Assembly: GCF_009720625.1 (NCBI RefSeq)
Contig: NZ_CP046266.1
Coordinates: 3,047,501 to 3,111,500 of the forward strand
Source: Metabacillus sediminilitoris
GTDB lineage: Bacteria; Bacillota; Bacilli; Bacillales; Bacillaceae
DNA: 64,000 nucleotides
Direction of reading: 5' to 3'
The position numbers were made by a program, and so were the translations under genes. Shown here piece after piece: positions 17,169 to 31,503 of the stretch. Under the pieces are notes generated by a model. That model was not told where the DNA came from. It did not search any database and saw nothing but the letters and a program-made list of their open reading frames with translations. Numbering within the stretch: the stretch's first letter is position 1; each line of letters opens with the position of its first letter.

Positions 17169-17302
17169 GTATATCCCCCACTATTAACGTAACGTTCTTT
17201 AAAAATCACATATCATTATATCATAAATCGACAAATTTCTGTGAATTTAGAGAGAGGGAATGATAGGAATCATTATCCCGAGTTTGCATAATATTATTAT
17301 GA

Positions 17303-17342
17303 CTACAAAAAAAGAAAACTAGGAGGACTAAACCTCCTAGTT
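17303..17342 (-). terminator. cotE terminator
   Basis: Perfect 10-bp stem (AACTAGGAGG, 17333-17342 and 17317-17326 on opposite arms), 6-nt loop, then TTTTCTTTTTTTG on the minus strand. The stem overlaps the cotE stop codon. Confidence 0.85.
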
Positions 17343-17883
17343 ATTCTTCAACATCGCCAACTAAAAATTCTGGATTTAAATCTTCAAATTCCTCTTCTAA
17401 TTCTTCCCATTCTTCATCATTGTCATCATAACCATCAGGGTTTACATGTACACAAACTTTTGTTTCGCCAATCACTTCAGCCAGATGCTCTCGTTCTGCT
17501 TGAACGATGATTTTATTTCCATTTGGAGAAATGGTAACTTCTAAGCAGTTAGGTTGTTGTAATGCTTTACAGATGACTTCATGTTCATCATCAAGAAAGT
17601 TATCGTCTTTATATCTTAATTTGATGACATCAACATATTCTACACGCTCAGTAACAACCTCAGTTTTTGTGTTTTCATTGTAGGAATACCAAACGTTAAT
17701 ATCGTAAGTACCTTCTACTTCAACAGTATTCCCATTCTTTTGAGCATCATAATTATGGTTAATAATCCAGCCACCTAAAATGCTCGCAGGTTTTTGCGAT
17801 GGTGAAATCGTATGTGTACATTGTGAAAATTTACGTCCTTTCGCAACAACTGCTTTTGTAATTATTTCTCTGTATTCAGACAT
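17341..17883 (-). CDS. cotE: Outer spore coat morphogenetic protein CotE
   Basis: 180 residues starting [20 protein letters not shown], characteristic of CotE, with a strongly acidic C-terminal tail ([18 protein letters not shown]) as in other Bacillus. CotE assembles on the forespore surface and is needed for outer coat deposition; it acts in the mother cell. It lies between ymcA and mutS as in B. subtilis. A sporulation promoter is expected in the 17884-18140 gap but I could not assign it with confidence. Confidence 0.95.
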
Positions 17884-18137
17884 TAGACCATACCCTCCTC
17901 AATAAATCTTCCTTTTAATCCTATGCTAGGCTAGTTACAATTGTGCCAATTAATTAACGAAAATGATGACAAGTTACGCCAATTCATGAAACGATATAGT
18001 TCATTGTATGCTTGGGATTCTAAATATTTGCCTAAAATTCAAAAAAGGTGCTACTTTAATATGAAAAATTTACACCCTCGAATGTTGCATTTTATGTTTG
18101 ATTGAAAAAGGGTATGGTCATGTTTTTATTCGAAAGA

Positions 18138-18174
18138 AATAAAATAAGGGACTGACAGTTAATGTCAATCCCTT
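18138..18174 (-). terminator. ymcA terminator
   Basis: Stem AAGGGA-TGACA against its complement (18146-18174, one mismatch pair), then ATTTTATTTC on the minus strand. It lies about 100 nt after ymcA. The remaining gap up to cotE (17884-18137) shows no gene. Confidence 0.75.
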
Positions 18175-18270
18175 ACTAATATGATTCGCAATATACTTGA
18201 ACATAAACTCAAAAGGGCCATCGTTAGGCGAATGCCTTATTCGTGGTATTCCTAATGTGATAAGTCTAGG

Positions 18271-18705
18271 TTATGAACAACTTCCTCCAGAAGAATTACG
18301 AACTTTAGAACCCGTTTCACCAGCTAATAGATCGCCGCCAGTTGAAGAGATAATCTCATTCGTCACTTTGTTAGAAATTGTATGAGAAACAAGTTGAAGT
18401 AATTCGTTTACTTCTATTTGTGATTCTTGAAATTCCTGGATAATCGGTATTTCATCTAATTCATTTTGAATTTTTTCAATTTTTTCTTCAACCTTTTTTA
18501 AGGCTTCAGATTTATTATAATGCTGGAAGTTAACTGCTTGCTTTTGAAGACTTTTAATACTGGCAATCATTTCACGTACTTTTTGGTTTTCATTGATTTG
18601 AGCCTCTGCACGTTTAAAAAAATCAACTTCCTTTGATTCTGAAATCATTTGCGCAAGTTCACGAGCTTTTGCCACAATATCATCTTTTGTATAGATTGTC
18701 GTCAT
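18271..18705 (-). CDS. ymcA: RicA/YmcA, RicAFT complex subunit
   Basis: 144 residues of mostly helical, Glu/Lys-rich sequence (VREMIASIKSLQKQAVNFQH) ending in a Cys-containing GGSCS tail, matching YmcA and in its conserved place between miaB and cotE. With YlbF and YaaT it forms the RicAFT complex, which binds iron-sulfur clusters and affects RNase Y-dependent mRNA processing, biofilm formation, competence and sporulation. One nucleotide separates it from miaB, so the two are co-transcribed, now from the promoter supplied by the integrated element. Confidence 0.9.
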   Translation of the reverse strand: MTTIYTKDDIVAKARELAQMISESKEVDFFKRAEAQINENQKVREMIASIKSLQKQAVNFQHYNKSEALKKVEEKIEKIQNELDEIPIIQEFQESQIEVNELLQLVSHTISNKVTNEIISSTGGDLLAGETGSKVRNSSGGSCS

Positions 18706-18706
18706 C

Positions 18707-20233
18707 TTATTTCACCTCAACCGCTTCTTCTATCATTTCTCCATTAAGCGTCCATGTTTTTGCTTTTGTAATTTTCACCTTTACAATCTGCCCAATCGCA
18801 GATTTAGGTGCTCTGAAGTTAACTAGCTTACTTTTTTCCGTATAGCCAGATAAAACATCAGGATTTTTTTTACTTTCCCCTTCAACTAAAACATTAACAA
18901 TCTTACCTTCGTATTCTTTTAATTTCTTTGCAGATGTTTCATTTACAAGAGCATTTAAACGTTGAAGACGTTCCTTTTTTACTTCCAACGGAACATTATC
19001 CTCCATTTTTGCAGCTGGTGTACCTTCACGAGGTGAATAGATAAACGTATAGGCGCTATCAAATTCTACTTCACGATACAATGATAAAGTTTCTTCAAAT
19101 TGCTCTTCTGTTTCATTCGGGAAGCCGACAATAATATCAGTTGTTAATGATGCGTTAGGCATTGCTTCTTTAATTTTACGTACTAATTCTAAATAATGTT
19201 CACGAGTATATTTTCGTGCCATAATTTTGAGAACATCCGTACTTCCTGATTGAACTGGTAAATGAATATGATCCAGAAGGTTTCCACCTTTTGCTAATAC
19301 TTCGATTAAGTGATCATCAAAATCACGTGGATGACTTGTCGTGAAGCGAATTCTCGGAATATCGATTTTACGAATTTCATCCATTAAATCGCCTAATCCG
19401 TACTTCATATCTTCAAAGTCTTTACCATATGCATTTACGTTCTGACCAAGAAGGGTGATTTCTTTATATCCTTGTGCTGCTAATTGACGAACCTCATGAA
19501 TAATTTCTTCTGGTCTGCGGCTTCGCTCTTTTCCGCGAGTATAAGGAACGATACAGTACGTACAGAATTTATCACACCCATACATAATGTTGACCCATCC
19601 CTTAATATTTCCTTTGCGGACTTTAGGGAGATTTTCGATAACGTCCCCTTCTTTTGACCAAACTTCAATGACCATTTCTTTTGAAAGATATGCTTCATTT
19701 AAAATGTTTGGTAATCGGTGGATATTATGCGTACCGAAAATCATGTCAACGAATGGATGAACCTTTAAGATTCGATTCACAACAGACTCTTCCTGTGACA
19801 TACAGCCGCAAACACCTAATAATAAGTCAGGTCTTTCTTTTTTTAATGTTTTAAGATGGCCAAGTTCACCGAATACTTTGTTTTCCGCATTTTCACGAAT
19901 TGCACATGTATTTAGTAAGATGACATTTGCATCCTCAACACCATCAGTTGGTTCATAGCCAAGTGCCATAAAAATACCCGCCATGACTTCTGTGTCATGT
20001 TCATTCATTTGACAGCCATATGTGCGAATATAAAATTTTCGACCTTCACCCATTCCTCTAAATTCCTCAGGAATTGAAAAGCCTTCGTATTTAACATCTT
20101 CTTTCCCGCGCTTTTTCGCATCTTTTAAGGAAGGTGGCATATATACTGCTTGGAAATACTGGCTGTAGTCCTTTTCGGATTTTTTGTCCGATGGATTTAC
20201 TTTTTGGGAATCTAATCTTTGTTTTTCGTTCAT
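18707..20233 (-). CDS. miaB: tRNA-2-methylthio-N6-dimethylallyladenosine synthase MiaB, 5' end replaced by mobile element
   Basis: 508 residues. Radical-SAM methylthiotransferase that adds the 2-methylthio group to i6A37 in tRNAs reading UNN codons. The N-terminal cluster domain has [12 protein letters not shown] (about 76-87), [16 protein letters not shown] and CGCM; the SAM cluster motif is GCDKFCTYC (about 219-227); a TRAM domain ends the protein. The first 11 codons ([11 protein letters not shown]), the AAGGAG site and the promoter come from the inserted element, while codons from about [11 protein letters not shown] onward lie in the 38-bp att repeat and host DNA. The original first codons survive 9.95 kb away at 30150-30180. 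The reading frame is kept exactly, so the protein should be functional. Confidence 0.97.
20165..20202. repeat. attL core, 38-bp direct repeat
   Basis: Identical to 30112-30149; flanking bases differ on both sides. It encodes about [12 protein letters not shown] of MiaB on the minus strand. Confidence 0.95.
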
Positions 20234-20300
20234 CTATTAGTTCAACTCCTTGCTGTTATTGCGTTTTCATGAGTTTGTTATCGCAATCTCTAACCCTTCT

Positions 20301-20329
20301 ATTATAAGGCAGGATTATGGCAAACTCAA
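20301..20329 (-). promoter_or_regulatory. Element-borne sigma-A promoter now driving miaB-ymcA
   Basis: On the minus strand TTGAGT (20324-20329), 17-nt spacer, TATAAT (20301-20306). It lies about 70 nt before the miaB ATG, with AAGGAG in between. It is inside the element, downstream of a terminator that ends the element's own operon. In the excised circle it would face attP and then the integrase gene. Confidence 0.8.
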
Positions 20330-20401
20330 GTTGATTTCATTTCCTGTTTGCGGTAATCCCTTAGTTTAACCGTTTCCCACCTCTATTATTAGGATAGACA
20401 C

Positions 20402-20439
20402 AAAAAAAAGACTAGGATACCTCCTTTAAGGATACCTAG
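20402..20439 (-). terminator. Terminator ending the DUF3231 transcript and insulating miaB
   Basis: Stem CTAGG-CCTAG with an internal loop and an inner 4-bp helix (20412-20439), followed by a run of eight T on the minus strand. It stands between 20588 and the miaB promoter. Confidence 0.75.
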
Positions 20440-20587
20440 CCTATTTGAATAATTATGTCTGAATGATTTATTTTGCTTACATCAAGTTTGAAATAAACAT
20501 CTAAAAAGTGGTCTTTGTAGTTTGGATATTAGCTTCAATAATATTGTATTCAAACGGTTTACAAAGTCATAAGCTTTCTAATTTTTG

Positions 20588-21592
20588 CTACACTTCTTTA
20601 GCAATTTCTTTTCTATTAGGGGCGAGTGGGGGTTGTTCTAACCATTTATTTTGTACCATCAAATCAAACCATTTCTTTGTTACCATAAGATTTTGTAGAA
20701 TTGTACTCTCAAAAGTGGTCACAAGGTCTGTTCTCATAGCTGATGCTAGACCTGTCCCATGATATGCCTGTGCGGCTTGGAACAAGAAACCTATATGATA
20801 CAACATTAACTTATCGGAAAAAGGGGAATCTGTTGAAGTTGTCACTTCTGTTTCCCACGACTTAGGAACTGGCAAATTATCCTTGTGCATGATTTTTGCA
20901 AGGGCTTGTATTTGTCCATCAGACGTTTTCTCGGAATCCTCTAAAAATTTTCTTACTTCTTTTATTTGGGTGACCTGACTGAATGCGATAGAAAGAGTTT
21001 TAGCCATAATACTCTTTTTAAGATTGAAAGAAATACTGATAATTTCTGTTGCAGTTAAACGCCTTCCTTTTCCAAAAAACCCATCTGTGAAATCTTGGCT
21101 AGTAATAAATTCAGGATTCTTAGCAGGATAAAATAATGGGTCTCTTTGAAAATTTCCTTTCTCAAGCAATAACTCTATGGTTTGATGATACATCTTTTTC
21201 GCATCGTTATCGCATGAATCGTAAAAATCCCTTAAGTCTTTTCTAACTGATACGGCAAATGCTGTGCTGTGCCCCAACAAACCATGTAATGTCATGATAT
21301 GTAAATAATTTAGGCAAAATATATCCGTGAACAATCTCGGTTTACCTTTAAACAGGTCTGATTCTGTAAATCCAATTGGGACTGGAAACCCCTCGTTCTC
21401 CATAAAAGTTACGATTTGTTCCTTTTGTTTTCCAAACGTCTTAATAGCATCCTCAAAAATGGCTTTAATTGACTCGTCCTCAATAATTGAAACCATATAT
21501 CTATTTACTACATCTGTCATTGTACCGTTCACATATTCTCCCCACAGTGTTCCTATTTCGGAAGATGTGAGTTTTAATTTATTCTCTTCCAC
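20588..21592 (-). CDS. DUF3231 family protein
   Basis: 334 residues consisting of two similar halves (each with a L-T-S-x-E-I or L-T-A-T-E-I start and helical bundles; GLLGHSTAFAVSVRKDL in the first, YHGTGLASAMRTDLV in the second), the pattern of DUF3231 proteins of Bacillus. These look like ferritin-like or coat-associated helical bundles; function unknown. Last gene of the element's minus-strand cargo, followed by a good terminator. A second-half H-G-T-G and first-half H-S-T-A are in matching positions, supporting internal duplication. Confidence 0.75.
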   Translation of the reverse strand: MEENKLKLTSSEIGTLWGEYVNGTMTDVVNRYMVSIIEDESIKAIFEDAIKTFGKQKEQIVTFMENEGFPVPIGFTESDLFKGKPRLFTDIFCLNYLHIMTLHGLLGHSTAFAVSVRKDLRDFYDSCDNDAKKMYHQTIELLLEKGNFQRDPLFYPAKNPEFITSQDFTDGFFGKGRRLTATEIISISFNLKKSIMAKTLSIAFSQVTQIKEVRKFLEDSEKTSDGQIQALAKIMHKDNLPVPKSWETEVTTSTDSPFSDKLMLYHIGFLFQAAQAYHGTGLASAMRTDLVTTFESTILQNLMVTKKWFDLMVQNKWLEQPPLAPNRKEIAKEV

Positions 21593-22003
21593 ATTATCAC
21601 CTCTAGGATATTATTTACCAATTCAATAAAAGGTATGAATTTGAATTTGTATCAAATGAAATCAGTAAAAGAAAGCTGATAATTCATAAACCAAGACATC
21701 TAAAACGGTTTAAGCAAAAAAGCAATTCCGTTTTTCTTTTCTAAATTCAAATACCGCTTGCCTAATAATCATAATGGTTTACTTTCCTTATCCTCTAAAT
21801 AAAAAACAGCCTTTTTAGTCTAAAAATTTCTTCGGATAAACTTACAAAATAAAAAGGTAGGTTTTAACTTAATTCCAGCCTTTCTTTTTCACTCAAATTC
21901 CTTCCCCGTATTCCCCGTCCTACCGAATAAGGCAAACAAAATATATAATTCCCTTTTATTTTGGAGATATTAACTCTAAATGCTATATATTAGGAGGCTT
22001 TTT
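21593..22003. other. Divergent intergenic region inside the element
   Basis: About 410 bases between the DUF3231 gene and the plus-strand small genes; AT-rich with T/A runs, presumably holding both promoters. No RNA or repeat recognised. Confidence 0.45.
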
Positions 22004-22096
22004 ATGGGCGTTTACCTACCAGTTAATATTCTAATGATTGATAATGGATGGCTTAATATACAACCTTCAACACTTGACCAAAAAAGTAACGGTTGA
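22004..22096 (+). CDS. Possible 30-aa peptide
   Basis: ATG at 22004 with a strong TTAGGAGG site 7 nt upstream; 30 codons, starting MGVYLPVNILMIDNGW. No family recognised. The strong ribosome binding site is the only support; it could be a leader peptide for the membrane protein gene that begins 90 nt downstream. Confidence 0.4.
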   Translation: MGVYLPVNILMIDNGWLNIQPSTLDQKSNG

Positions 22097-22186
22097 AAAA
22101 ATGAAGCAGTCTAAACTTCTATTAGTAGATTATGATGATTCTCCCTATGGAAAAAACTAAATTGATAAAAGGATAGTCGGGATAAT

Positions 22187-22630
22187 GTGAACAGTGCAAA
22201 AGAAAAATTATTATGGAGTATAGCACTTCCAGGGTTTGGACAATTTTTAAACGGAAAAGTGGTAAAAGGTGTTGTTATTCTGTTTTTAGAATTTCTAGTT
22301 AATGTACAAGCGAATTTTAATGAAGCAATCATTTCAAGTTTTCATAGGGATATTGAAAAAGCGATTGAACAAGTTGATTATCAATGGTTAATGTTTTATC
22401 CATGTTTGTATTTTTTCGCAATGTGGGATGCGTTTAAAGACGCAGGTGGGGGAAAAGAAAAGTATGCTTTCCTTCCGTTTGTATTTTCAGCCTATTTTGT
22501 AACGGTTGGATGTATCTATTCATCAAGTTTTAGGATATTTGGGGTTTTATTCGGACCTGTTTGGCTTCCTATGCTATTTGTTATACCGGGATTGGTTGTT
22601 GGTTTATTAATTAAGAAAATATTAAGTTAA
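22187..22630 (+). CDS. Small multi-helix membrane protein
   Basis: 147 residues, GTG start. It has an N-terminal ALPGFGQFLNGKVVKG motif similar to TM2/DUF5683-type small membrane proteins (P-G-x-G-Q-x-x-x-G-x), followed by three to four hydrophobic segments. Function unknown; proteins of this kind are common in Bacillus. It is one of only three plus-strand genes in the element. Confidence 0.6.
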   Translation: MNSAKEKLLWSIALPGFGQFLNGKVVKGVVILFLEFLVNVQANFNEAIISSFHRDIEKAIEQVDYQWLMFYPCLYFFAMWDAFKDAGGGKEKYAFLPFVFSAYFVTVGCIYSSSFRIFGVLFGPVWLPMLFVIPGLVVGLLIKKILS

Positions 22631-22804
22631 CCGTTAATCAGATTTTTATGACTTCCTTCTTTTGCTTTTTTAACCCTTTTTCTCACTCCTAGTTAGGTCG
22701 TGCTTATAGGAAATCTTAATTTTCAAAAAACATTCTAGTAATTAGTCTAAAAATATTTCATAATTACTTATAGATATAATGCTTAGCTTAGGGGGGGAGT
22801 AATA

Positions 22805-22945
22805 ATGGTTGAAAGTGAGTTACTTTATCGGGAACTAAAAAGACTAACAGACGATTATTCCAAGTGTAACAATCCATCCATCCAAAAACTATTACAAAGC
22901 GATATTGAACTTTTAACAAAAGCCTTGTTGTTGAGGAAGAGTTAG
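22805..22945 (+). CDS. 46-aa helical-hairpin peptide, distant Spo0E-like shape
   Basis: ATG at 22805 directly after GGGGGGGAG. The peptide (MVESELLYRELKRLTDDYSK, a short N-N-P turn, then a second helix) has the length and hairpin layout of Spo0E-family phosphatases, but the S-Q-E-L-D signature is absent (LLQSDIELL instead). I therefore leave the family open. It converges with the Sda-like gene 16 nt away, so the two small genes form a tail-to-tail pair. Confidence 0.45.
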   Translation: MVESELLYRELKRLTDDYSKCNNPSIQKLLQSDIELLTKALLLRKS

Positions 22946-22961
22946 CCATTTAAATTAGAGT

Positions 22962-23126
22962 TTACTTAATACGTAAAAGATGAACTGGCTTTTCACTAAC
23001 CAAATCTCTTCCTTTGATTTCAGTAAATACAAATTCAATAAATTCTTTATCTAAATTTTGTTCAACAGATTTTCTATAGATATTAATTAATAATTCATCC
23101 TCTACATAGAACCAAGAATAAGACAT
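22962..23126 (-). CDS. sda: Sda-like inhibitor of sporulation histidine kinases
   Basis: ATG at 23126 after GAGGAAGTG; 54 residues. The core YVEDELLINIYRKS followed by VEQNLDKEFIEFVFTEIKGR lines up with B. subtilis Sda ([33 protein letters not shown]), including the helical hairpin residues. Sda binds the dimerisation domain of KinA/KinB and blocks the phosphorelay when replication is disturbed. Chromosomal sda normally lies elsewhere, so this is probably an extra copy carried by the element. It has a longer C-terminal tail (about 8 residues) than Sda. Confidence 0.8.
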   Translation of the reverse strand: MSYSWFYVEDELLINIYRKSVEQNLDKEFIEFVFTEIKGRDLVSEKPVHLLRIK

Positions 23127-23202
23127 AATTTATCACTTCCTCATTTAATATCTATATTTTCTTTACTTCAAAGTGTTTTTATTCTTTAGTAAAGCAATTA
23201 GA

Positions 23203-23233
23203 CAAAAAAGAGAATAACCCGTTTAGGCTATCC
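23203..23233 (-). terminator. Terminator after the 81-aa gene
   Basis: ATAGCC-loop-GGGTTAT stem (23214-23231) followed by CTCTTTTTTG on the minus strand. The loop sequence is shared with the terminator at 28466-28492. Confidence 0.65.
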
Positions 23234-23234
23234 C

Positions 23235-23480
23235 CTAGAAGTCCTCCAGTGTTAAATTGTTTTCTTCATTACCTGTTAAACCCAATCCCGTACAATCAAT
23301 AATCCTAGTATGTGATTGCATGTACTTAGATATGAAAGAAGTTTGCTGTACATGTAACGGATGATTCTTTTTTAACCATGCACGACTAACAATGTTATCC
23401 AGTAAATGTACTGTACCATTAGCATCTGTTATAAAGTAAAGTTTCCTATTCTGTAATCCTTCAAAACTATCAATAAACAT
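23235..23480 (-). CDS. Hypothetical element protein, 81 aa
   Basis: 81 residues with an antiparallel-strand-like first half (RKLYFITDANGTVHLLDNIV) and a Cys in DCTGLGL. A GGAGTTG-type site precedes the start. It follows the 149-aa gene by about 30 nt in the same direction and ends at a terminator, so it is the last gene of the terminase-containing operon. Function not recognised. Confidence 0.55.
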   Translation of the reverse strand: MFIDSFEGLQNRKLYFITDANGTVHLLDNIVSRAWLKKNHPLHVQQTSFISKYMQSHTRIIDCTGLGLTGNEENNLTLEDF

Positions 23481-23509
23481 TTTTAGAACAACTCCTTTTC
23501 TCTTTGGGC

Positions 23510-23959
23510 TTATAAGACGATTTGTATAATTGACGGGTCTATTTTAGTTCCTTCTAGCCTGAAATGAACGTCAATGTAAAAATCCTCCACTTTGGTTATG
23601 TCCTTACCTTTTCCAAAGGCTTCCACTGGTAAATTGACTTCTACTTTAAAGATTTCAAACTTAACCTTTCTCAACTGGATAACTTTTCCTATTGGATATT
23701 TTTCTATTGCCTTAACCCAATTGGATTCTTTTGGAAGTTTCATAGTTTGGTAGTGATTGGAATGTAACCCGTAGGCAAGATTTTCCTTTTTCTTCATTCG
23801 GTGATACACTTTGTTAACTGCAAGTAGTTCCGCATATTTAAATTTTCCAACCATTTGCCCACTGGATATTTCTTCCTCACCATCCCAAATTTCACCATGT
23901 AAATCAATAATGATAGTTCCATCATCTTCCAGTCGATAACTACTGATACTATTCTCCAT
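23510..23959 (-). CDS. Hypothetical element protein, 149 aa
   Basis: The ATG at 23959 overlaps the stop region of the terminase-like gene (translational coupling); an alternative TTG start lies 18 nt upstream. The protein is beta-rich (YRLEDDGTIIIDLHGEIW near the N-terminus, FYIDVHFRLEGT near the end). Its position right after a small terminase, and soluble beta-rich character, would suit a capsid-remodelling or packaging accessory, but no homologue is recognised. Confidence 0.55.
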   Translation of the reverse strand: MENSISSYRLEDDGTIIIDLHGEIWDGEEEISSGQMVGKFKYAELLAVNKVYHRMKKKENLAYGLHSNHYQTMKLPKESNWVKAIEKYPIGKVIQLRKVKFEIFKVEVNLPVEAFGKGKDITKVEDFYIDVHFRLEGTKIDPSIIQIVL

Positions 23960-24464
23960 TGTCTTCACCGCTTCCAAAGATGTTATTTAAATCCTCTTCA
24001 CTTGGGGCATAGACTTCTTTACGGTTTATGGAATCCCATCTTTTCTCTAGGTCTATGATTTCCTTCGGTTTCTCCGTTAGATGGATATGAAGGTTATCTG
24101 GTGCTAGAAGGTTACCTGTCATTTTGGCTAATAATTCAATAGCCTTTATTTTATCCCTGTTAGGCATGGCAACCTTTACTATTTCACCAGTTTGATAATT
24201 TACTACTTCATCCTTACCGTTTAGTATCATCTTGGATAACTCTTCCTGCATTTGTAAACCTGTCATAACTTCGGTGTTAACAGTGGATAGTTCCTGAATG
24301 TAAGCTTTTACCAGTTCATTCTTCATGTATTTTTCACCTGTCTTTACATGAATACCAACTTGTTCACTAGCTTGTTTTATAACTCCCGTTCCTGCATAGG
24401 CTATTGCAAAGCTTCTTTGTTTATCGGTTAATCCATCTAATTTACTCTTGGTACGTTTTTCCAT
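23949..24464 (-). CDS. Terminase-small-subunit-like DNA-binding protein
   Basis: 171 residues. The N-terminal LTDKQRSFAIAYAGTGVIKQ and ASEQVGIHVKTGEKYMKN region (residues 12-50) is the helix-turn-helix DNA-binding start typical of Terminase_2 small subunits (L-T-x-K-Q-x-x-F, A-A-x-x-A-G-x...T), followed by helices that oligomerise. TerS recognises the packaging site on phage DNA. No large terminase is encoded nearby, which is the arrangement in SaPI-type satellites that redirect a helper phage's packaging motor. RBS GGAGGATATAAC precedes ATG. Alternative: a general HTH regulator of similar fold. Confidence 0.6.
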   Translation of the reverse strand: MEKRTKSKLDGLTDKQRSFAIAYAGTGVIKQASEQVGIHVKTGEKYMKNELVKAYIQELSTVNTEVMTGLQMQEELSKMILNGKDEVVNYQTGEIVKVAMPNRDKIKAIELLAKMTGNLLAPDNLHIHLTEKPKEIIDLEKRWDSINRKEVYAPSEEDLNNIFGSGEDNGE

Positions 24465-24492
24465 GTTATATCCTCCTTAGTTTTAAGACAAA

Positions 24493-24520
24493 TAAAAAAA
24501 GGGAGTGGATTTTACTCTCC
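24493..24520 (-). terminator. Terminator between 24512 gene and terminase-like gene
   Basis: GGAGaGT / ACTCC stem overlapping the stop of the upstream gene, then seven T on the minus strand. It would reduce read-through into the terminase-like gene. Confidence 0.55.
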
Positions 24521-25210
24521 GTTTCCTCCTTCAAATTGAACATAACTGGAAGACATTCCAACTTCTCTTTCCAGTGATTTAATTTCTGTTTCCAATTCCT
24601 CTATCTTTGCTTTCCGTTCTTGTCTACCTTCGATTGAAGTAGCTTGTTGGTATGCTTTCATTTCCTTAGTGATTCCTTTTGTATAGTCCTCATAGCTATC
24701 ATAAGCATTATAGACTTCAGGAACTTTATGGAAATCCATATCATGTTCTACTTTCGGTCTATTCAACTCTAATTCAAAGAGATGGCTGTCCATTCCGTTA
24801 GCTACAACAACCTTGTTATAGTAATCCATTGAAGGCTTTTGGTCAAAGCTTCCATATTCTAAAGCCATCGCTTCGGCTTTGAAAGTAGAATTAAAGTTAG
24901 CCTTGGATAAATCATCTAATCCTTCATATGTCTTAGCGGTTACTGGTTTAATATCAGAAACTTTACCGTTTTGGGAAACAGTGTAATAACTTACAATCCC
25001 ATCCACTTTTACAAATCGTTTTTCACCTGCATTACTAGCAAGTGTAATGGTTGGATTTCCCATTTCTTTAAGCTTGGATAGTTCTTGTACCTTTTGTGCC
25101 ATAAGTGACTTTTGAGATTTTAAATTTTGTTCTGCCATTAATTTCATCTGTCTTCCCACTGGTGAATTGATAAATGAGTTCATTGCTTTTAATTGTGCTT
25201 CCATGTTCAT
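24512..25210 (-). CDS. Hypothetical element protein with C-terminal coiled coil, 232 aa
   Basis: 232 residues: an N-terminal helical part (MNSFINSPVGRQMKLMAEQN), a central region with short strands, and a C-terminal charged coiled coil (RKAKIEELETEIKSLEREVG, about 200-218). Begins 2 nt after the 68-aa coiled-coil gene, so the two are co-translated. No known domain recognised; a structural or scaffolding role is possible but not shown. Confidence 0.55.
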   Translation of the reverse strand: MNMEAQLKAMNSFINSPVGRQMKLMAEQNLKSQKSLMAQKVQELSKLKEMGNPTITLASNAGEKRFVKVDGIVSYYTVSQNGKVSDIKPVTAKTYEGLDDLSKANFNSTFKAEAMALEYGSFDQKPSMDYYNKVVVANGMDSHLFELELNRPKVEHDMDFHKVPEVYNAYDSYEDYTKGITKEMKAYQQATSIEGRQERKAKIEELETEIKSLEREVGMSSSYVQFEGGNGE

Positions 25211-25212
25211 AA

Positions 25213-25419
25213 TTATTTTCTCCCCCTGTCATATAGTGCTAACATCTTAGTTAGTCTTCGGTATTCTAATTCCAGTTTGTCAATTTCTTCAATTGCTTTC
25301 TTTAAATCTTGCTTTAACTGGTGATTCTCCTTAGTAGCAAAGAAGTATTTTCTTTTTAATTTCTCATTTTCCACCGATAAGACGGTAACAGTATCTTCCA
25401 ACAATTGGTTAGTTTCCAT
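25213..25419 (-). CDS. Small coiled-coil protein, 68 aa
   Basis: 68 residues predicted to be one long helix (VENEKLKRKYFFATKENHQL, then KKAIEEIDKLELEYRRLTKM) with heptad spacing of hydrophobics. AGGAG precedes the start. First gene after the 0.7 kb non-coding block and coupled to the next gene. Function unknown; length and shape resemble phage scaffolds or regulators that work as coiled-coil dimers. Confidence 0.5.
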   Translation of the reverse strand: METNQLLEDTVTVLSVENEKLKRKYFFATKENHQLKQDLKKAIEEIDKLELEYRRLTKMLALYDRGRK

Positions 25420-26116
25420 ACCAACTCCAATCTCCTTTCTATTTTTCGGATTATAAAAATTATTGGACTACCCTATAACCACCTCACAGGATGATTTTAA
25501 TAGGATAGTCCTAAGCCATTACAATCCATGTTGTAACGGGTCTTGCACTTGTGGTTAAAGCTTTTAGGTTTTACATTCCCTTCCTCAAGGGGAACAACCT
25601 GACTCAAGATAACCCGTCAACCCTTCCAAAGCGAACAGGTAAAAGAGAAAGCCTGTACAAGAACAATGATGGTTCTTGAAAGAAAAATAAGAAATGGCGG
25701 AGGGATACTAACAAGATTGTTTCGTCTTGGATTGGTTACCAGTTTTTCTTCTCTTGCTTTTTCCCATGATAGAAAGGCGGTGGATAGCGTTCCAATTCTA
25801 CCCACCAAATTACAAGGATTGTCCACATGAATACGTCAACGTTCTTTTTACATCTTGGTTGTTGATTCCAAGAAAACCTTAAAGGTAAATACAATACCAT
25901 GTCCAAGAATGTGCTAGGCTTCTAGTCATTAGTATTTTATTTAGAAAATGGTTTCCCACTTTCCATAAACCTCACTAACAAAGCGTGTTATCTCAACATG
26001 GCAGTTAATGAAGTCTAGCAAAGGAGGAATATAAGATAGACAAACTAAAAAATAAAAGAGAGGTAAAAGTAATTGCGATTCGCACTACCTTACATATATA
26101 TAAGAGGATATTATTT
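25420..26116. other. 0.7 kb non-coding block with hairpins inside the element
   Basis: No supported frame on either strand. It contains GTAACGGGT (about 25534) against ACCCGT (about 25610) as distant complementary arms, a small CCTTCCTCAAGGGG-type hairpin near 25578, and several shorter inverted repeats, all upstream of the 68-aa gene. It may be a long structured 5' leader, a packaging site region or an ncRNA. Confidence 0.35.
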
Positions 26117-26875
26117 TTAAAATCTTACAGTTTTTGCAAATTTTCTTAGAGATTTTTTATCATTCTCTAGTAGTTTAGCAATCTCCTTTAGTAGTCTAGT
26201 GATGGTAGAAGGGTGCATTCCAAGTTCTTCCCCTAACCCCTCAAGATGGATTGTACCGTTATCCTTTACACTTCCAGTCTTTACTAGTTTGTCATCTTTC
26301 ATAGTCCATTTATCAGCAAAGGCGATTCCTTCCAGTACGATAGTAAACTTTTCATACTTGTTAACACTTACTTTATCTTCCAGTAGCATTAGGACTTCAT
26401 CCACCAATTCAATAATGGTGTTATCAGTTGTTACTTTGTCAGTTTTCTGCGAATTGTCATTTCCTACCATTTCATGTAGGGTAAGGTTATTGTCTTGGTT
26501 ACCGTTTCCTTTTACCTTGTTATCCATTGAAGCACGTTTAACACTTAGTTTCTCTGTGTAAGAATCTCCAAGGTTTAGGACATCTTGTGTCTTCATATGT
26601 TTATAGAAGTCCTTTACAATCCATTCCATGCCCCTATTAAGCCAGTTCTCTAATTCGGTAGTCCTTTCATTCTCTGGGCGATTAATGAAGCGTATTGCCC
26701 TTACTGTTGCCTTCTCCATTAGATAGGATTCAACCTCCTGTGCTTTCCAGTGTCCTCCATTCCATTTACCTTTAACTTTTGCTACCTTCCAGTTGTTAGA
26801 TAGGATTACCTGATTTAATTTTCTTTGAACTACCTTGTTAATGATTTTTCCCTCTGCTTCTGTTAACATTGTCAT
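26117..26875 (-). CDS. Sigma-factor-like helix-turn-helix protein
   Basis: 252 residues; the start at 26875 follows AGGAGG by 7 nt (an earlier in-frame ATG at 26938 has no such site). The C-terminal region LEGLGEELGMHPSTITRLLK (about 213-232) is a helix-turn-helix like sigma region 4, and the middle FINRPENERTTELENWLNRG resembles the linker of phage-type sigma-like activators. It stands alone between two large non-coding blocks and may activate late element promoters. The exact family is not certain. Confidence 0.5.
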   Translation of the reverse strand: MTMLTEAEGKIINKVVQRKLNQVILSNNWKVAKVKGKWNGGHWKAQEVESYLMEKATVRAIRFINRPENERTTELENWLNRGMEWIVKDFYKHMKTQDVLNLGDSYTEKLSVKRASMDNKVKGNGNQDNNLTLHEMVGNDNSQKTDKVTTDNTIIELVDEVLMLLEDKVSVNKYEKFTIVLEGIAFADKWTMKDDKLVKTGSVKDNGTIHLEGLGEELGMHPSTITRLLKEIAKLLENDKKSLRKFAKTVRF

Positions 26876-26921
26876 TTTAATTCCTCCTGTTTTTGTTTTG
26901 TTTATACTTCTTAATAAAGTC

Positions 26922-27177
26922 AAACTGGTTTTTTGCACCCCTCATAGTTGTTAATCGAATGATGTTCTTAACATGGGACATTTTTCTGTTGATTAAAAAG
27001 CCTTATAATTTACTAACAAAGCAAACTCGTTTTCTGTACCCTTGCCCCTATAATTTTTTAACGATTGAAACTTGTTTTCTGTACCCTTCCTATTTAAAAA
27101 ACGATTCAAATTGATGAAATGCACAATTTTTATATAAGCTTTCTCTTACTAATAAAGGGAACTGGATTGAATGCACA
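26922..27177 (+). repeat. Degenerate iteron-like direct repeats
   Basis: Three clear copies of AAACTNGTTTTCTGTACCCTT-like sequence at 26922, 27023-27043 and 27068-27088, and two weaker ones (CAAATTGATGAAATGCAC near 27107 and GAACTGGATTGAATGCAC near 27159). They lie just upstream of the sigma-like gene on its promoter side. They may be operators or initiator-binding iterons. Confidence 0.5.
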
Positions 27178-27235
27178 AAAGGACATAAAAAAAGAACCGT
27201 ACCGTTAGGACAGTTCTTTAAATTGGGATATGTTT

Positions 27236-27328
27236 TTGTTAGATTTTCAAAACTTTTCTCTCTTATATAACTGTAAGGGTAATAAGTTAGTGATAATTAC
27301 TTAGTTTAAATTTGTTAGATTTTCAAAA
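27236..27328 (+). repeat. 17-bp direct repeat pair
   Basis: TTGTTAGATTTTCAAAA occurs at 27236-27252 and 27312-27328, 76 nt apart (about seven helical turns), so both face the same side of the DNA. Confidence 0.7.
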
Positions 27329-28197
27329 GTTTTGTCGCTTTAATTATTGAGAGGTAAGTTAGTTAATAGAGAAATAAATAATAGATAAGAAATAAAACAC
27401 TACCGAAGGTAATCAGTTCTTATTAAAAAGCTTTACAAGTTAATGAAGATATGAATTGTTCGTCTACACTCACAATTAAATATTTAAATAGGATACAAAC
27501 GGTAAACTTAATAAGAGAATTATGATAAAGGTTTATAAGAAGGGGAAACGATATAAACAAGAGTTATACCGATACGATAGACATACTACATTATATTTAT
27601 TCTAATTAAGGAAAACACTGTCATAGCAGCGTTTGTGATGGGTGGAATTTGTTGGAAGGTGTTAAGAATAAGTATCGTTACGGGGATGATATGTCAATAG
27701 TAAATTGTTGGAAATTTTAATATTTACAAATAAATATTTTTGTCAATGGTTATTTTAGGGAAACTTTTTAGTCACAACTAACCGTTAATGTCAACATGAA
27801 ATTTATGGAAGGATTTTTGTATTTGTTGGAAAGAGGGTTTGTCAACCAATGGTAAATGTACCGTTATGTCAAGTACCAATTTAAGGAAGCGGGAGATTAT
27901 CCTTATACACCCCTCATACAACCAAGATGGTAAGAATTGGAGTGATATTTGCGGTAATCCATAGGAGATTGTCTTTAATTCAATAGGTAAGCTAGGACTA
28001 CCAAGGATAGAGATGAATGCCACATACATCCGATTGTATAATTATAAGTGTAGATACACCAACCCCCTAGCCCCACCCCTTTCCAATAAAGTTAATATTA
28101 TCTTGTTTGGTTGTAGAATTATGGAAATAAAAAGATAATGTCATATTATACCACCCGTTCCAATAGTACCCAATTATAACGGTACATTCCTACACTA

Positions 28198-28313
28198 CCA
28201 TTTGTTTACATTAAATCCTTATCACTAACACATTACCAATACCTGTCATTATAACCAGTACATACCATTTAACCTTATTGCCATTTTGATACATTTAATC
28301 CATTTGTTTACAT
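28198..28313 (+). repeat. 14-bp direct repeat pair near a DnaA-box-like site
   Basis: CCATTTGTTTACAT at 28198-28211 and 28300-28313, with TTATCCATA (one mismatch to a DnaA box) 11 nt further on. Confidence 0.6.
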
Positions 28314-28465
28314 AACGATTAGATTATCCATAGTTGGGAATTGTTGGTAATGCTGGGGGGCTTTAAAAATTGGAATAATTTGGTGGATGGTATTAATATC
28401 TAATACATTTTTAAAATAAACTTGGGGCATCCATTTTTATTTTTTTCTCAGTATAAATTGGCGAA

Positions 28466-28492
28466 ACAAAAAAGATTAACCGTTTAGGCTAG
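28466..28492 (-). terminator. Terminator after the membrane-anchored protein gene
   Basis: TAGCC-TAAAC-GGTTA stem-loop (28477-28491) followed by CTTTTTTG on the minus strand; same loop sequence as the terminator at 23203-23233. Confidence 0.65.
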
Positions 28493-28532
28493 AATCCTTT
28501 ATAAAGAAAAAGCGTCTCTACCTCATAGGCTT

Positions 28533-28919
28533 TTACTCGTCTACATATTCAATATTAATCCCATTTACTTTTTTATCCATTTCGCAAGTTTCAGAAGATT
28601 TATCATAAATAACTTTTAGGTTCTTTTCGTCAATCCATTCAACAGAAAAGTCTTTATCAGACCTAAATGTATTTCCTGATTCATTTTGAAAATCATCATC
28701 TTTGTTTAATATGGATAATTGAGGTGAAAATCCCGTTGTTGCACCACAACTTCTTTCGAAAATATAAGCAACATTCTCACCATTAGGAGAAGGGATTTTT
28801 TGTTTAATATCATTTCCACACAAATCCTCAAATAAGAAATCCAATAGATAATTACCAGCCATAAATACAAATAATATTATGATTAACTTCATTAAAAGAG
28901 TTTTTAATCTTTTTGTCAT
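28533..28919 (-). CDS. DUF5412-like membrane-anchored protein
   Basis: 128 residues from the ATG at 28919 (GGGTGG upstream). One N-terminal membrane helix (LLMKLIIILFVFMAGNYLL) then an extracytoplasmic beta-rich domain with SPNGENVAYIFERSCGATTG, the signature of DUF5412-type Bacillus proteins, including the paired cysteines. Function unknown. It lies between the integrase and the non-coding block, where satellites and phages often keep superinfection or lysogeny cargo. Confidence 0.6.
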   Translation of the reverse strand: MTKRLKTLLMKLIIILFVFMAGNYLLDFLFEDLCGNDIKQKIPSPNGENVAYIFERSCGATTGFSPQLSILNKDDDFQNESGNTFRSDKDFSVEWIDEKNLKVIYDKSSETCEMDKKVNGINIEYVDE

Positions 28920-29054
28920 TAGAACCACCCAAAATTCAAGTAAATTAAAATTATTTTTACCTAAATGTACTGTTTTATTATGTTCTTCTTTATCTATCCT
29001 GCCCCTTTCTAAAAAAAAGAACCTACCATTAATAGGTAGGCTTGTAATCTCTAA

Positions 29055-29990
29055 TTATGAATACTTCTTTCTAAGAGTGGTTAACGGCGAAGCATTTCTC
29101 CCACGTTCTAAAACAGTCTTGTCTTCCATTGATTGAATATATCTTTCGGTTGTCGCTAACTGGTTATGTCCTAGTAACCGACTAACCGTATAAAGGTCTG
29201 TATGCCCTAGTGATATTTGTGCATAGCTTCTCCTACAACTATGTACAAGTAGCTTAACATCTACCCCACAGGCTTTCCCGCTTCTCTTTACTACATTGAG
29301 AACTGCATCATGACCCATTCTACCGATAGAGTTAACATCCTTCATTACAAGCCCTCCACCTTTGGCACGTGTACAGACGAACAGGAAGGGGCATTCCTCG
29401 CCTTTTAGGTACTTCTCTCTAACTCTCCTATACTTGTTTAATTGTCGCTTTAAATGTAGGCTTACAGGCACTAACCGCTGTTTGTTACCTTTCCCCCTAA
29501 TCAGTAGGGCATCATCGAATACATCCGTTAACATTATATTGGATAACTCCGCAGAACGGATACCAGTTTCAAACAAACAGGTTAAGATAGTTTTATTCCT
29601 GACATCCATGTAATTACTTCCACAATAGAAGTCAATCATCTTCTGAATATCATCAATGCTAAAAGGCTTAATCATTACCTTCTCTTCCTTAAGTAGTTCA
29701 ATGTCATTCAGTGGATTGTCTTTCAGGATTTTCTCTTTGATACAGAACTTATAGAAGTTGTTAAGTGTTTTTAGTTTGGTGTTAATGGTATTGGCTTTGA
29801 TACTTTCGTCTAACAGGTGCTTAATCCACCTTTTGATATGTCTTGTTGTAGCATCCTCTAGTTCAATCTGAAAGGATTCCCACAACCATCTTTCAAACTG
29901 TATTAAAATTGCTTTCTTGTTTTTGACGGTTGACTTACTGTAATTTTGGATTTCGATTTCTGTAATGTAGTCTTCTAGTGATAGGTTCAT
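29055..29990 (-). CDS. int: Tyrosine recombinase / integrase of the element
   Basis: 311 residues. The N-terminal SAM-like core-binding domain (residues about 3-90) is followed by the catalytic domain with all key residues: Arg in ETGIRSAELS (about 143), Lys in GKGNKQRLVPV, H-x-x-R in HSCRRSYA (about 250), His in RLLGHNQL and the nucleophile Tyr in TTERYIQ (about 287). XerC/D-like in architecture. It sits 122 nt from the right att repeat. Upstream lie the surviving miaB promoter and start, with no terminator in between, so in the integrated state host transcription probably expresses it. Confidence 0.93.
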   Translation of the reverse strand: MNLSLEDYITEIEIQNYSKSTVKNKKAILIQFERWLWESFQIELEDATTRHIKRWIKHLLDESIKANTINTKLKTLNNFYKFCIKEKILKDNPLNDIELLKEEKVMIKPFSIDDIQKMIDFYCGSNYMDVRNKTILTCLFETGIRSAELSNIMLTDVFDDALLIRGKGNKQRLVPVSLHLKRQLNKYRRVREKYLKGEECPFLFVCTRAKGGGLVMKDVNSIGRMGHDAVLNVVKRSGKACGVDVKLLVHSCRRSYAQISLGHTDLYTVSRLLGHNQLATTERYIQSMEDKTVLERGRNASPLTTLRKKYS

Positions 29991-30023
29991 TTGCGATAAT
30001 CCTCCCTGATTTTAATAATCGTT

Positions 30024-30041
30024 AGGATTACGGCAAACTCA
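30024..30041. repeat. Terminal 18-bp repeat, right copy
   Basis: AGGATTACGGCAAACTCA; matches 20311-20328 with one mismatch. The left copy overlaps the -35 of the miaB promoter; this copy lies between attR and the integrase gene. Possible integrase arm site or shared operator. Confidence 0.6.
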
Positions 30042-30045
30042 TAAT

Positions 30046-30180
30046 TTAAACTTTGCGGAAATAGGCTTGAAGCCTTGGGGCTGTAAGGCTGAATGAACGC
30101 GAAGCGTAGGGGTAGTCCTTTTCGGATTTTTTGTCCGATGGATTTACTTGAGTACTTTCCTTACGTTGTTGTTCATTCAT
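30046..30180 (-). pseudogene. miaB: Displaced original miaB 5' end, fused to element sequence
   Basis: ATG at 30180 with AAGGAG upstream begins [20 protein letters not shown], the original MiaB N-terminus. After the 38-bp att core the frame runs into element DNA and stops at 30046 (44 codons). The distance from start codon to core (31 nt) is the same as in the element-supplied version, showing precise replacement. It may serve only as a translated leader ahead of the integrase gene, which begins 56 nt later. Confidence 0.9.
30112..30149. repeat. attR core, 38-bp direct repeat
   Basis: Identical to 20165-20202. Confidence 0.95.
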
Positions 30181-30295
30181 TACGTTTTTCTCCTTTCAAA
30201 CTTACCCTTTTATTTCTAAATGGTCTTGATCTCGTTGTTTTTTGCATAAATGTTGTACATAAAGCGAATAAAAATAGAGAAACATACAACTAAAT

Positions 30296-30324
30296 AGTAT
30301 ATCGATAACAGTCTTATAAGACAA
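30296..30324 (-). promoter_or_regulatory. Original miaB promoter, now upstream of the integrase
   Basis: Minus strand TTGTCT (30319-30324), 17-nt spacer, TATACT (30296-30301), about 115 nt before the original ATG. The rest of 30181-30398 shows no gene. Confidence 0.65.
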
Positions 30325-30398
30325 TCATTTCTAGCAACTAGTCAAAATTTTACACGTTTTGTCTAGAAAAAGCGAATTCTTTAAAAACAAAGTATTCA

Positions 30399-31358
30399 TT
30401 AATATCCTCGCTGACGATTCACAAGCCCTTGCAATGGTTGATCATTTACATAGCGTTGGATATTATTCACAAAAAAGCTACAAACTCCATCAGTTGTACT
30501 TGGTCCTGATAAATGTGACGTGATATGGACATTTGATAGTGTGTATAGTGGATGATCTACTGGCAGCGGTTCTGTCTCAAATACATCAAGAATGGCAGCT
30601 TTAAGATGACCTTTCCTCATAACAGAAACCAAATCCGTTTCATTTATTAATGCGCCGCGTCCCACATTCATAATAGTGGCATTAGTTTTCATCGCGAGCA
30701 AAATATCATGATTTATGATGTGTTTTGTGGCATCTGTTAATGGTAATGTCAGCACTAAATAATCCAAATCTTTAACAAAAGCTACCCATTGTTCCGGTGA
30801 AAAATGGCGATCTACTATATGAGCTTGCTTGCCATTAAAACTTAACCCATGAACATTCATCTGAAATGCTCGTGCTTTTTGGACAATTTCTGCTCCAATT
30901 GACCCTAAGCCTGCTACTCCTATTGTTTTCCCAGCTAGTAATTCTGGAATAAATGGATCCCAGCGATTTTCACGTTGCGATTGTTTCATCCTTGCGACAT
31001 CTTTTAACATGTATAACAGAAACGTAAAAACGTATTCAGAAATATAAGTACCGAATTGATCAACAATTCGTGTGATCGTTATGTTATTAGGAATGGTAGC
31101 ATCTGCCATCAAATCATCGACCCCGGCTCCCATTGACTGATACCATGATACAGATGAAGCGCTTGGTTTATTTAAAAGGTGGGTTGGAAATTTCCAGCCT
31201 AAAATAATCTCTGTACCTGGTAAATGCTTTTTTGCTTCCTCTGACGTTGCTGCTACTTTTATATGATTAAATCCATGATTTCTTACACATTCTGCATAAG
31301 CTTTTGCTCGGTCTGGACTATATACTAGAATGGTTGGTTGTGTTGATTTCAATTTCAT
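30399..31358 (-). CDS. D-2-hydroxyacid dehydrogenase
   Basis: 319 residues. The NAD-binding motif is GVAGLGSIGAEIVQKARAF (about 147-165), with NVGRGALINETDLV around 226 and the catalytic His in HITSHLSGPS near 278. Most similar in layout to glyoxylate/hydroxypyruvate reductase-like members that reduce 2-keto acids with NAD(P)H. AGGAG precedes ATG. Monocistronic; the natural substrate is not evident. Confidence 0.85.
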   Translation of the reverse strand: MKLKSTQPTILVYSPDRAKAYAECVRNHGFNHIKVAATSEEAKKHLPGTEIILGWKFPTHLLNKPSASSVSWYQSMGAGVDDLMADATIPNNITITRIVDQFGTYISEYVFTFLLYMLKDVARMKQSQRENRWDPFIPELLAGKTIGVAGLGSIGAEIVQKARAFQMNVHGLSFNGKQAHIVDRHFSPEQWVAFVKDLDYLVLTLPLTDATKHIINHDILLAMKTNATIMNVGRGALINETDLVSVMRKGHLKAAILDVFETEPLPVDHPLYTLSNVHITSHLSGPSTTDGVCSFFVNNIQRYVNDQPLQGLVNRQRGY

Positions 31359-31503
31359 CGAATCTCTCCTTCAGCAAAAGCTTTTTTTCATCATTTTCAT
31401 GATAAGCTATCTTATGATCAGCTCTTCGTTGTTGGAAATTATATGTAAGAAATGACCTCTATTAATCATTTAATCAAGCCATCTTATTCACTACAATTAA
31501 CCT

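Follow-up and report, generated by a model that had tools for sequence, protein, structure and literature searches.

Several integrative elements insert into the 5' end of a host gene and supply what the insertion removes, and the present analysis concerns such an arrangement in Metabacillus sediminilitoris, where a ~9.95-kb element lies within the beginning of miaB, a gene for tRNA modification. The window analysed is a stretch of 64,000 nucleotides (nt) of contig NZ_CP046266.1 (positions 3,047,501 to 3,111,500), and coordinates below are counted from its first letter. Among the closest described systems, the dusA-type element IMEVchUSA3 has been shown to provide a promoter and an N-terminus, with dusA expression being reduced (PMC8409611), and SXT provides both for prfC, as cited in the same report. 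In SpyCI, integration separates mutL from its promoter, one strain being rescued by a cryptic promoter that lies within a disrupted int (PMC3430984). In KplE1, the intS promoter is repressed by Int (about fivefold) and by the directionality factor, and sites for the recombination proteins overlap the promoter (PMC2951348). Promoter provision upon 5'-end integration is already known, and because the dusA and SXT/prfC elements supply both a promoter and an N-terminus, the kind of element described here is known as well.

As described in PMC4482086 and PMC8409611, the dusA islands resemble this locus in several ways: an element with a tyrosine recombinase occupies the 5' end of a gene for tRNA modification, a promoter (here a promoter-like site) and an in-frame N-terminus come from the element, the original 5' end stands at the outer border, and the cargo varies, with the integrase as the one universal gene. 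Unlike the present case, they belong to Proteobacteria and target dusA, and IMEVchUSA3 has a reported active int promoter. The SXT/R391 integrative and conjugative element in prfC, compared by its description in PMC8409611 only, differs in being conjugative and in having other hosts and another target gene. SpyCI, too, is a small phage-like island that sits in a Firmicute host gene at its 5' end, and its state affects the downstream operon; in contrast to what is described for SpyCI (PMC3430984), the element end here supplies a promoter-like site, a Shine-Dalgarno sequence, a start and a reading frame, and does not have the form of an expression blocker. As in KplE1 intS, repeats overlap a promoter at the attachment (att) region, those of KplE1 being recombination-protein sites and those described here candidate sites. 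Unlike KplE1 as described in PMC2951348, Int here has no recognised N-terminal arm-binding domain, and the overlapped chromosomal promoter precedes the host gene rather than int.

As read from the sequence, three features distinguish this locus: miaB as the target, int placed behind the displaced host promoter, and a repeat-overlapped promoter upstream of miaB-ricA. Among titles and abstract openings in the open literature searched, neither a miaB of Bacilli with a prophage or integration nor a displaced host promoter reading into int was found; the MiaB-like rimO is mentioned as a target in Polaromonas. The preferred explanation, given a probability of roughly 0.7, is that the element would exchange equivalent 5' modules in an expression-preserving manner, with possible control by the element over the new promoter. 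Host-gene-restoring 5'-end integration would thereby be extended to miaB in relatives of Bacillus, with a conserved promoter-bearing att cassette kept together with the integrase while the cargo differs. The locus thus offers a testable case of an element that keeps a host operon running and possibly controls it, with the developmental regulator RicA downstream.

Exchange of 5' modules at miaB

The element is bounded by a perfect 38-bp repeat (38/38 identity), one copy forming the miaB-side junction (20165-20202, minus strand) and the other the int-side junction (30112-30149, minus strand). Both copies lie within miaB coding sequence, inside the first 23 codons, and the core carries the dyad CGGA-CAAAAAA-TCCG. 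This dyad, CGGACAAAAAATCCG, was found in miaB of all 20 genus relatives examined. The uninserted 38-bp core occurs in 17 of the 20 at 0-4 mismatches, one of them at 0, and in the remaining three the core flanks have diverged, with 13-14 mismatches over 38 bp. No tRNA was detected in the window by ARAGORN, and no Rfam RNA reached gathering score in 17000-31500.

On the inner side of this junction, miaB is an intact hybrid open reading frame (ORF) of 508 amino acids (18707-20233, minus strand), in which the 31 nt ahead of the core (20233-20203) are derived from the element. Its first 11 residues are element-encoded and replace MNEQQRKESTQ, differing at five positions, and the 12 residues from 12 to 23 are encoded by the shared core in both the miaB ORF and the far-border fragment. 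The UPF0004 and TIGR01574 matches to MiaB start at residue 66, with the swapped part ahead of them; because the modelled domains begin only there, the exchange probably spares the enzyme core of MiaB.

A named-genome scan for relatives gave three loci, L009, L010 and L011. The full arrangement is found in miaB of Neobacillus kokaensis (L009), where the start codon is GTG. In Bacillus canaveralius it is split: the int side lies at the end of one contig (L011) and the miaB side on a second (L041), the latter probably of this species because genome G829 carries int at the contig coordinates of L011. Fictibacillus terranigra (L010) holds a decayed int at another place, where the miaB core is absent. 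By sequence, then, three genera have the element in miaB.

The element end facing miaB carries a promoter-like site, TTGAGT-17-TATAAT (minus strand, -35 at 20329-20324 and -10 at 20306-20301; 10 of 12 consensus bases), followed by a Shine-Dalgarno sequence, AAGGAG (20246-20251, minus strand), located 12 nt ahead of the ATG at 20233. A terminator-like hairpin with a T-run lies upstream of this promoter (20409-20442, minus strand) and could insulate it; the segment 20396-20452 folds at -16.2 kcal/mol, a value reached by 1 of 200 shuffles, and is absent from a simple terminator-scan list. Over the cassette 20204-20412, 169 of 209 alignment columns are invariant in the three elements of the window, N. 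kokaensis and B. canaveralius. Both the -35 and the -10 are fully invariant (6/6 each), as against 2/5 columns of the spacer outside the repeat described below; the downstream repeat copy has 14/14 invariant columns, the upstream copy 12/14, and the element coding columns 20233-20203 have 22/31. Promoter-like consensus sites were also counted between 18000 and 31500 on both strands, and these counts were dropped as evidence, with 55 observed against 51.6 expected. As consensus matching alone is at chance level, support for the promoter calls comes from conservation. The idea that the cassette is a recent capture of the miaB leader of another host was rejected after a 176-bp search of 398 genomes of the class, with at most two candidates scored per genome, returned the own genome only. 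The cassette has no match in plasmid records.

At the other border, the native miaB promoter, TTGTCT-17-TATACT (30296-30324, minus strand; 9 of 12 consensus bases), now faces a leader ORF and int. The form TTGT..-17-TATACT precedes miaB in 17 of the 20 genus relatives, a count that leaves out an unrelated distant match in L031, with L030 and L032 lacking the motif. For N. kokaensis, as for two other genomes from the same genus, the native promoter reads TTGTTT-17-TATACT, and for B. canaveralius and a sister species it reads TTGTTT-17-TAAAAT. The leader ORF (44 amino acids; 30046-30180, minus strand) joins the native miaB start to an in-frame element tail. Its last 24 codons are open and equal in number in all four loci compared (the window, N. 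kokaensis, F. terranigra and B. canaveralius, the last with offsetting indels), although open frames of such length carry only modest weight. Between the leader stop and int there are 55 nt in the window and in N. kokaensis, and 56 nt in B. canaveralius. The int gene itself (29055-29990, minus strand) encodes a XerC/D-like tyrosine recombinase of 311 amino acids (PF00589, 1.1e-17), which matches the TIGR02224 XerC model at 8.3e-45, under that model's cut-off, and the XerD structure 1a0p at 1.8e-15.

Both promoters, the start codons and the 38-bp repeat had been proposed in the initial annotation of this stretch, and all were located as it described. Its assertion that no terminator separates the native promoter from int also holds: none was found on the minus strand from 30324 to 29990, and the next terminator-like site downstream comes after int (29020-29042, minus strand).

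When the excised circle is joined in silico, the leader ORF is still open behind the start of the element, and joining the flanks into an empty site recovers the native miaB start. Because the leader ORF is open in the chromosome and in the joined circle, int is predicted to stand behind a miaB-type start in both the integrated and the excised state. Two MiaB proteins, P0121 and P0122, equal that of the window except for 5 or 6 residues in positions 4-11 and one further residue each. The N-terminus of P0121 is exactly that of the orphan fragment, and P0122 has the same one bar one change. Since these near-identical proteins carry the native N-terminus, the empty site probably exists, as judged at the protein level. 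The closest MiaB proteins that bear a name are 92% identical and point to Metabacillus as the probable genus.

In the proposed mechanism, the XerC/D-like integrase would recombine at the CGGA-7-TCCG dyad near the miaB start. By sequence, the cassette at the element end rebuilds full-length miaB abutting ricA, for it brings a terminator-like tail, the inverted repeats, a promoter-like site, a Shine-Dalgarno sequence, a start and codons resembling those of miaB; the displaced native promoter and start lead through the short in-frame leader ORF towards int. Two equivalent 5' modules would be swapped, with miaB-ricA and int each keeping a promoter in either state, rather than being turned on or off. 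Preservation is the simpler reading because, whichever state the element is in, neither gene loses a sigma-A-like promoter or an in-frame start. Levels may still differ between states through the spacing and pairing of the Shine-Dalgarno and the repeat overlap at the element promoter. In folded leaders, the unpaired probability of GGAG is ~0.06-0.1 in that of the element as against 0.14-0.35 in the native one, and the Shine-Dalgarno lies 12 nt from the start in the former versus 9 nt in the latter. Somewhat lower MiaB from the element leader is predicted, because its Shine-Dalgarno is more paired and spaced further from the start.

Any such difference may reach beyond miaB. RicA is a partner of RNase Y and belongs to the Spo0A pathway. 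Its gene, ricA (ymcA; 18271-18705, minus strand; PF06133 Com_YlbF, YlbF/YmcA, 1.4e-23), stands directly behind miaB and is followed by a terminator-like hairpin (18177-18143, minus strand) and then by cotE and mutS. Because the two ORFs abut, and because ymcB and ricA of B. subtilis are described as appearing translationally coupled (PMC10470536), it is plausible that ricA expression follows that of miaB.

Repeats at the element ends and competing explanations

Across the 5.6-Mb genome, the repeat GGATTAYVGCAAAY matches exactly five times, each time inside the element, versus once for a reversed control pattern. In the window, allowing at most 1 mismatch, five matches occur, all exact, against 0.43 expected, and none of 100 shuffles reached five; the count holds partly by construction, because the motif was drawn from these very copies. 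A first version of the motif at up to 3 mismatches gave 23 matches in the window against 15.35 expected. Independent support comes from the 2+2+1 layout, also present in N. kokaensis, and from pairs at both B. canaveralius ends, in each case under a slightly looser pattern. One copy (20312-20325, plus strand) overlies the element promoter, where it takes in 12 of the 17 spacer bases as well as the final 2 bases of the -35, and its inverted partner lies upstream of the -35 (20346-20359, minus strand). Another overlaps the Shine-Dalgarno and start of int (29989-30002, minus strand), with an inverted partner between the leader stop and int (30025-30038, plus strand), and the fifth (27947-27960, minus strand) falls in a noncoding block at ~27691-28467. 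The native promoter has no exact copy of GGATTAYVGCAAAY.

As it is nearly the sole protein common to the two complete elements, Int is the obvious candidate binder of these repeats. A repeat-binding protein, Int or a partner, might lower the element promoter and thereby trim int while the element is a circle and miaB-ricA while it is integrated, a weaker part of the proposal than the exchange itself. Equally weaker is the suggestion that a hairpin at the int start could hold Int low on transcripts from upstream promoters. This RNA hairpin, formed by the int-side repeat pair (29986-30042, minus strand), pairs the int start region and some of the Shine-Dalgarno bases ahead of it. It folds at -18.1 kcal/mol, as good a value being found in 1 of 500 shuffles; N. 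kokaensis gives -15.8 kcal/mol, B. canaveralius -14.7 and the decayed copy of Fictibacillus -9.6. When the long transcript that starts at the native promoter is folded, 5 of 7 int Shine-Dalgarno bases are nearly fully paired; because the hairpin covers part of that sequence, the native promoter may give little Int.

Several observations weigh against the expression-preserving exchange or its regulatory part. The promoters are called from consensus matches with three related elements behind them, and the repeats that overlap the cassette promoter may account for some of its conservation. Int shows no separate N-terminal arm-binding domain (its SAM-like, core-binding domain runs from residue 7, and the XerD alignment from residue 16), so that its domains do not predict repeat binding. 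Single arm-site mutations, moreover, did not relieve repression in KplE1 (PMC2951348). The initial annotation had named separate strong promoters and terminators between 29990 and 30180 as telling against its proposal; no terminator-like site was found there, but a promoter-like TTGCCG-16-TAAAAT lies just ahead of int (30036-30009), scoring 8.56 against 8.91 for the native promoter on a rough matrix of base frequencies. Such a promoter of its own could free int from the swap.

This last site leads to a tentative alternative, in which int would be shielded: the hairpin would damp translation of read-through transcripts, and Int would come from its own weak promoter, or once a repeat binder or translation of the leader opens the hairpin. 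Protection of transposase genes from outside transcription is comparable in idea, and no paper on fold-back inhibition was found in the open literature searched. The stability of the hairpin in the window and two relatives, the near-native score of the putative promoter, and a leader tail open and of equal length in all four loci are what such shielding would call for. However, the same inverted repeat is also found at the element promoter, ahead of where transcription is expected to start, and the hairpin could be a by-product of DNA repeats. A transcript from the 30036-30009 site would start within the int Shine-Dalgarno, the remaining bases of which are still paired in the short transcripts folded, and the -10 of this site lacks its final T in the other three loci. 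Pairing of the int Shine-Dalgarno is also partial only in the folded circle transcript, and in the long B. canaveralius transcript the start codon is largely unpaired.

A true switch, in which excision and integration markedly shift expression of int and miaB-ricA and the element state sets tRNA modification and RicA, was closer to what the initial annotation had in mind. Of its claim that one recombination changes which promoter drives which gene, the reciprocal swap of 5' modules stands in the sequence and in the circle and empty site joined in silico. The switch itself is held to be unlikely, and less likely than the expression-preserving exchange. The two promoters do differ in sequence, leader length and Shine-Dalgarno spacing, an element-specific repeat overlies only one of them as an exact copy, and ricA is directly behind miaB; yet their rough-matrix scores are alike (10.06 for the element promoter versus 8.91 for the native one) and the starts are intact in both states. 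The single integrated copy in the assembly speaks neither way on dynamic excision. Nor does an inert remnant, immobile and with the new front end of miaB as a fixed replacement, seem probable. The own genome is the only one among 21 of the genus with int at E <= 1e-60, and the Fictibacillus relative has its decayed int away from miaB, as a remnant might; against this, the int ORF is intact, the cores are identical over 38 bp, near-identical MiaB proteins point to an empty allele, and related elements occupy the same site in two other genera. The expression-preserving exchange is accordingly kept here as the preferred reading.

Distribution, relatives and cargo of the element

Close int homologues are rare, being found in 1 of 21 genus genomes (1e-60), 1 of 80 family genomes (1e-70) and 1 of 397 order genomes (1e-70), the own genome each time. 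Another family has close integrases in 4 of 193 genomes (1e-60), with identities of 87-91% in two of these. G915 and G951 hold integrases of about 40% identity that contain one stop each, and miaB there is uninserted, with a native-looking start. In F. terranigra, the int at L010 9860-10916 is frameshifted, has lost its start codon and lies directly past the end of an ORF for a membrane-protein-like product of 133 amino acids, not in miaB; the site is possibly a secondary attachment site or holds a displaced remnant.

When element ORFs of at least 40 amino acids were compared between the window and N. kokaensis, int was 91% identical and a terminase-small-like protein 36%, the other matches being only ORFs that overlap int or lie in the noncoding block. 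Phage records gave no DNA match, and by protein 67 of them match int, all below 60% identity; no relatives were found in viral contigs. Among plasmids, 12 records match the element, 9 through a DUF3231 gene and 3 through a short stretch.

The terminase-small-subunit-like protein (23949-24464, minus strand; PF03592 7e-7, phrog_51 2.5e-13) has its N. kokaensis counterpart at L009 16072-16611, also with PF03592. Neither a capsid nor a primase family was found among the proteins scanned. With a terminase small subunit and without a full capsid gene set, the element is possibly a phage satellite. As for a regulator, only a weak helix-turn-helix (HTH) was seen, in a 273-amino-acid protein (E 0.004), below the cut-off.

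A short ORF of 54 amino acids (22962-23126, minus strand) belongs to the Sda family, sporulation inhibitor A (PF08970 2.5e-8, above the cut-off), and is one of four Sda-family loci in the genome. Together with ricA downstream of the swapped promoter, it suggests a sporulation theme. A far-reaching version, considered quite improbable, would place miaB-ricA under the element's own operator: a repeat-binding factor would tune the promoter and so modulate ms2i6A and RicA, which with the Sda-family gene would let the element influence sporulation of its host.

The DUF3231 cargo gene (20588-21592, minus strand; PF11553 7.6e-86) is cargo common to plasmids, because nine plasmid records hold it; the region 20594-21642 is 82.6-84.7% identical in DNA to these nine records of Priestia and Metabacillus. 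The noncoding block 27691-28467 has no Rfam match at gathering score. It is 66.7% identical over 807 bp to the N. kokaensis element, with shorter pieces shared with L010 and L011, and is possibly a replication origin or a regulatory RNA.

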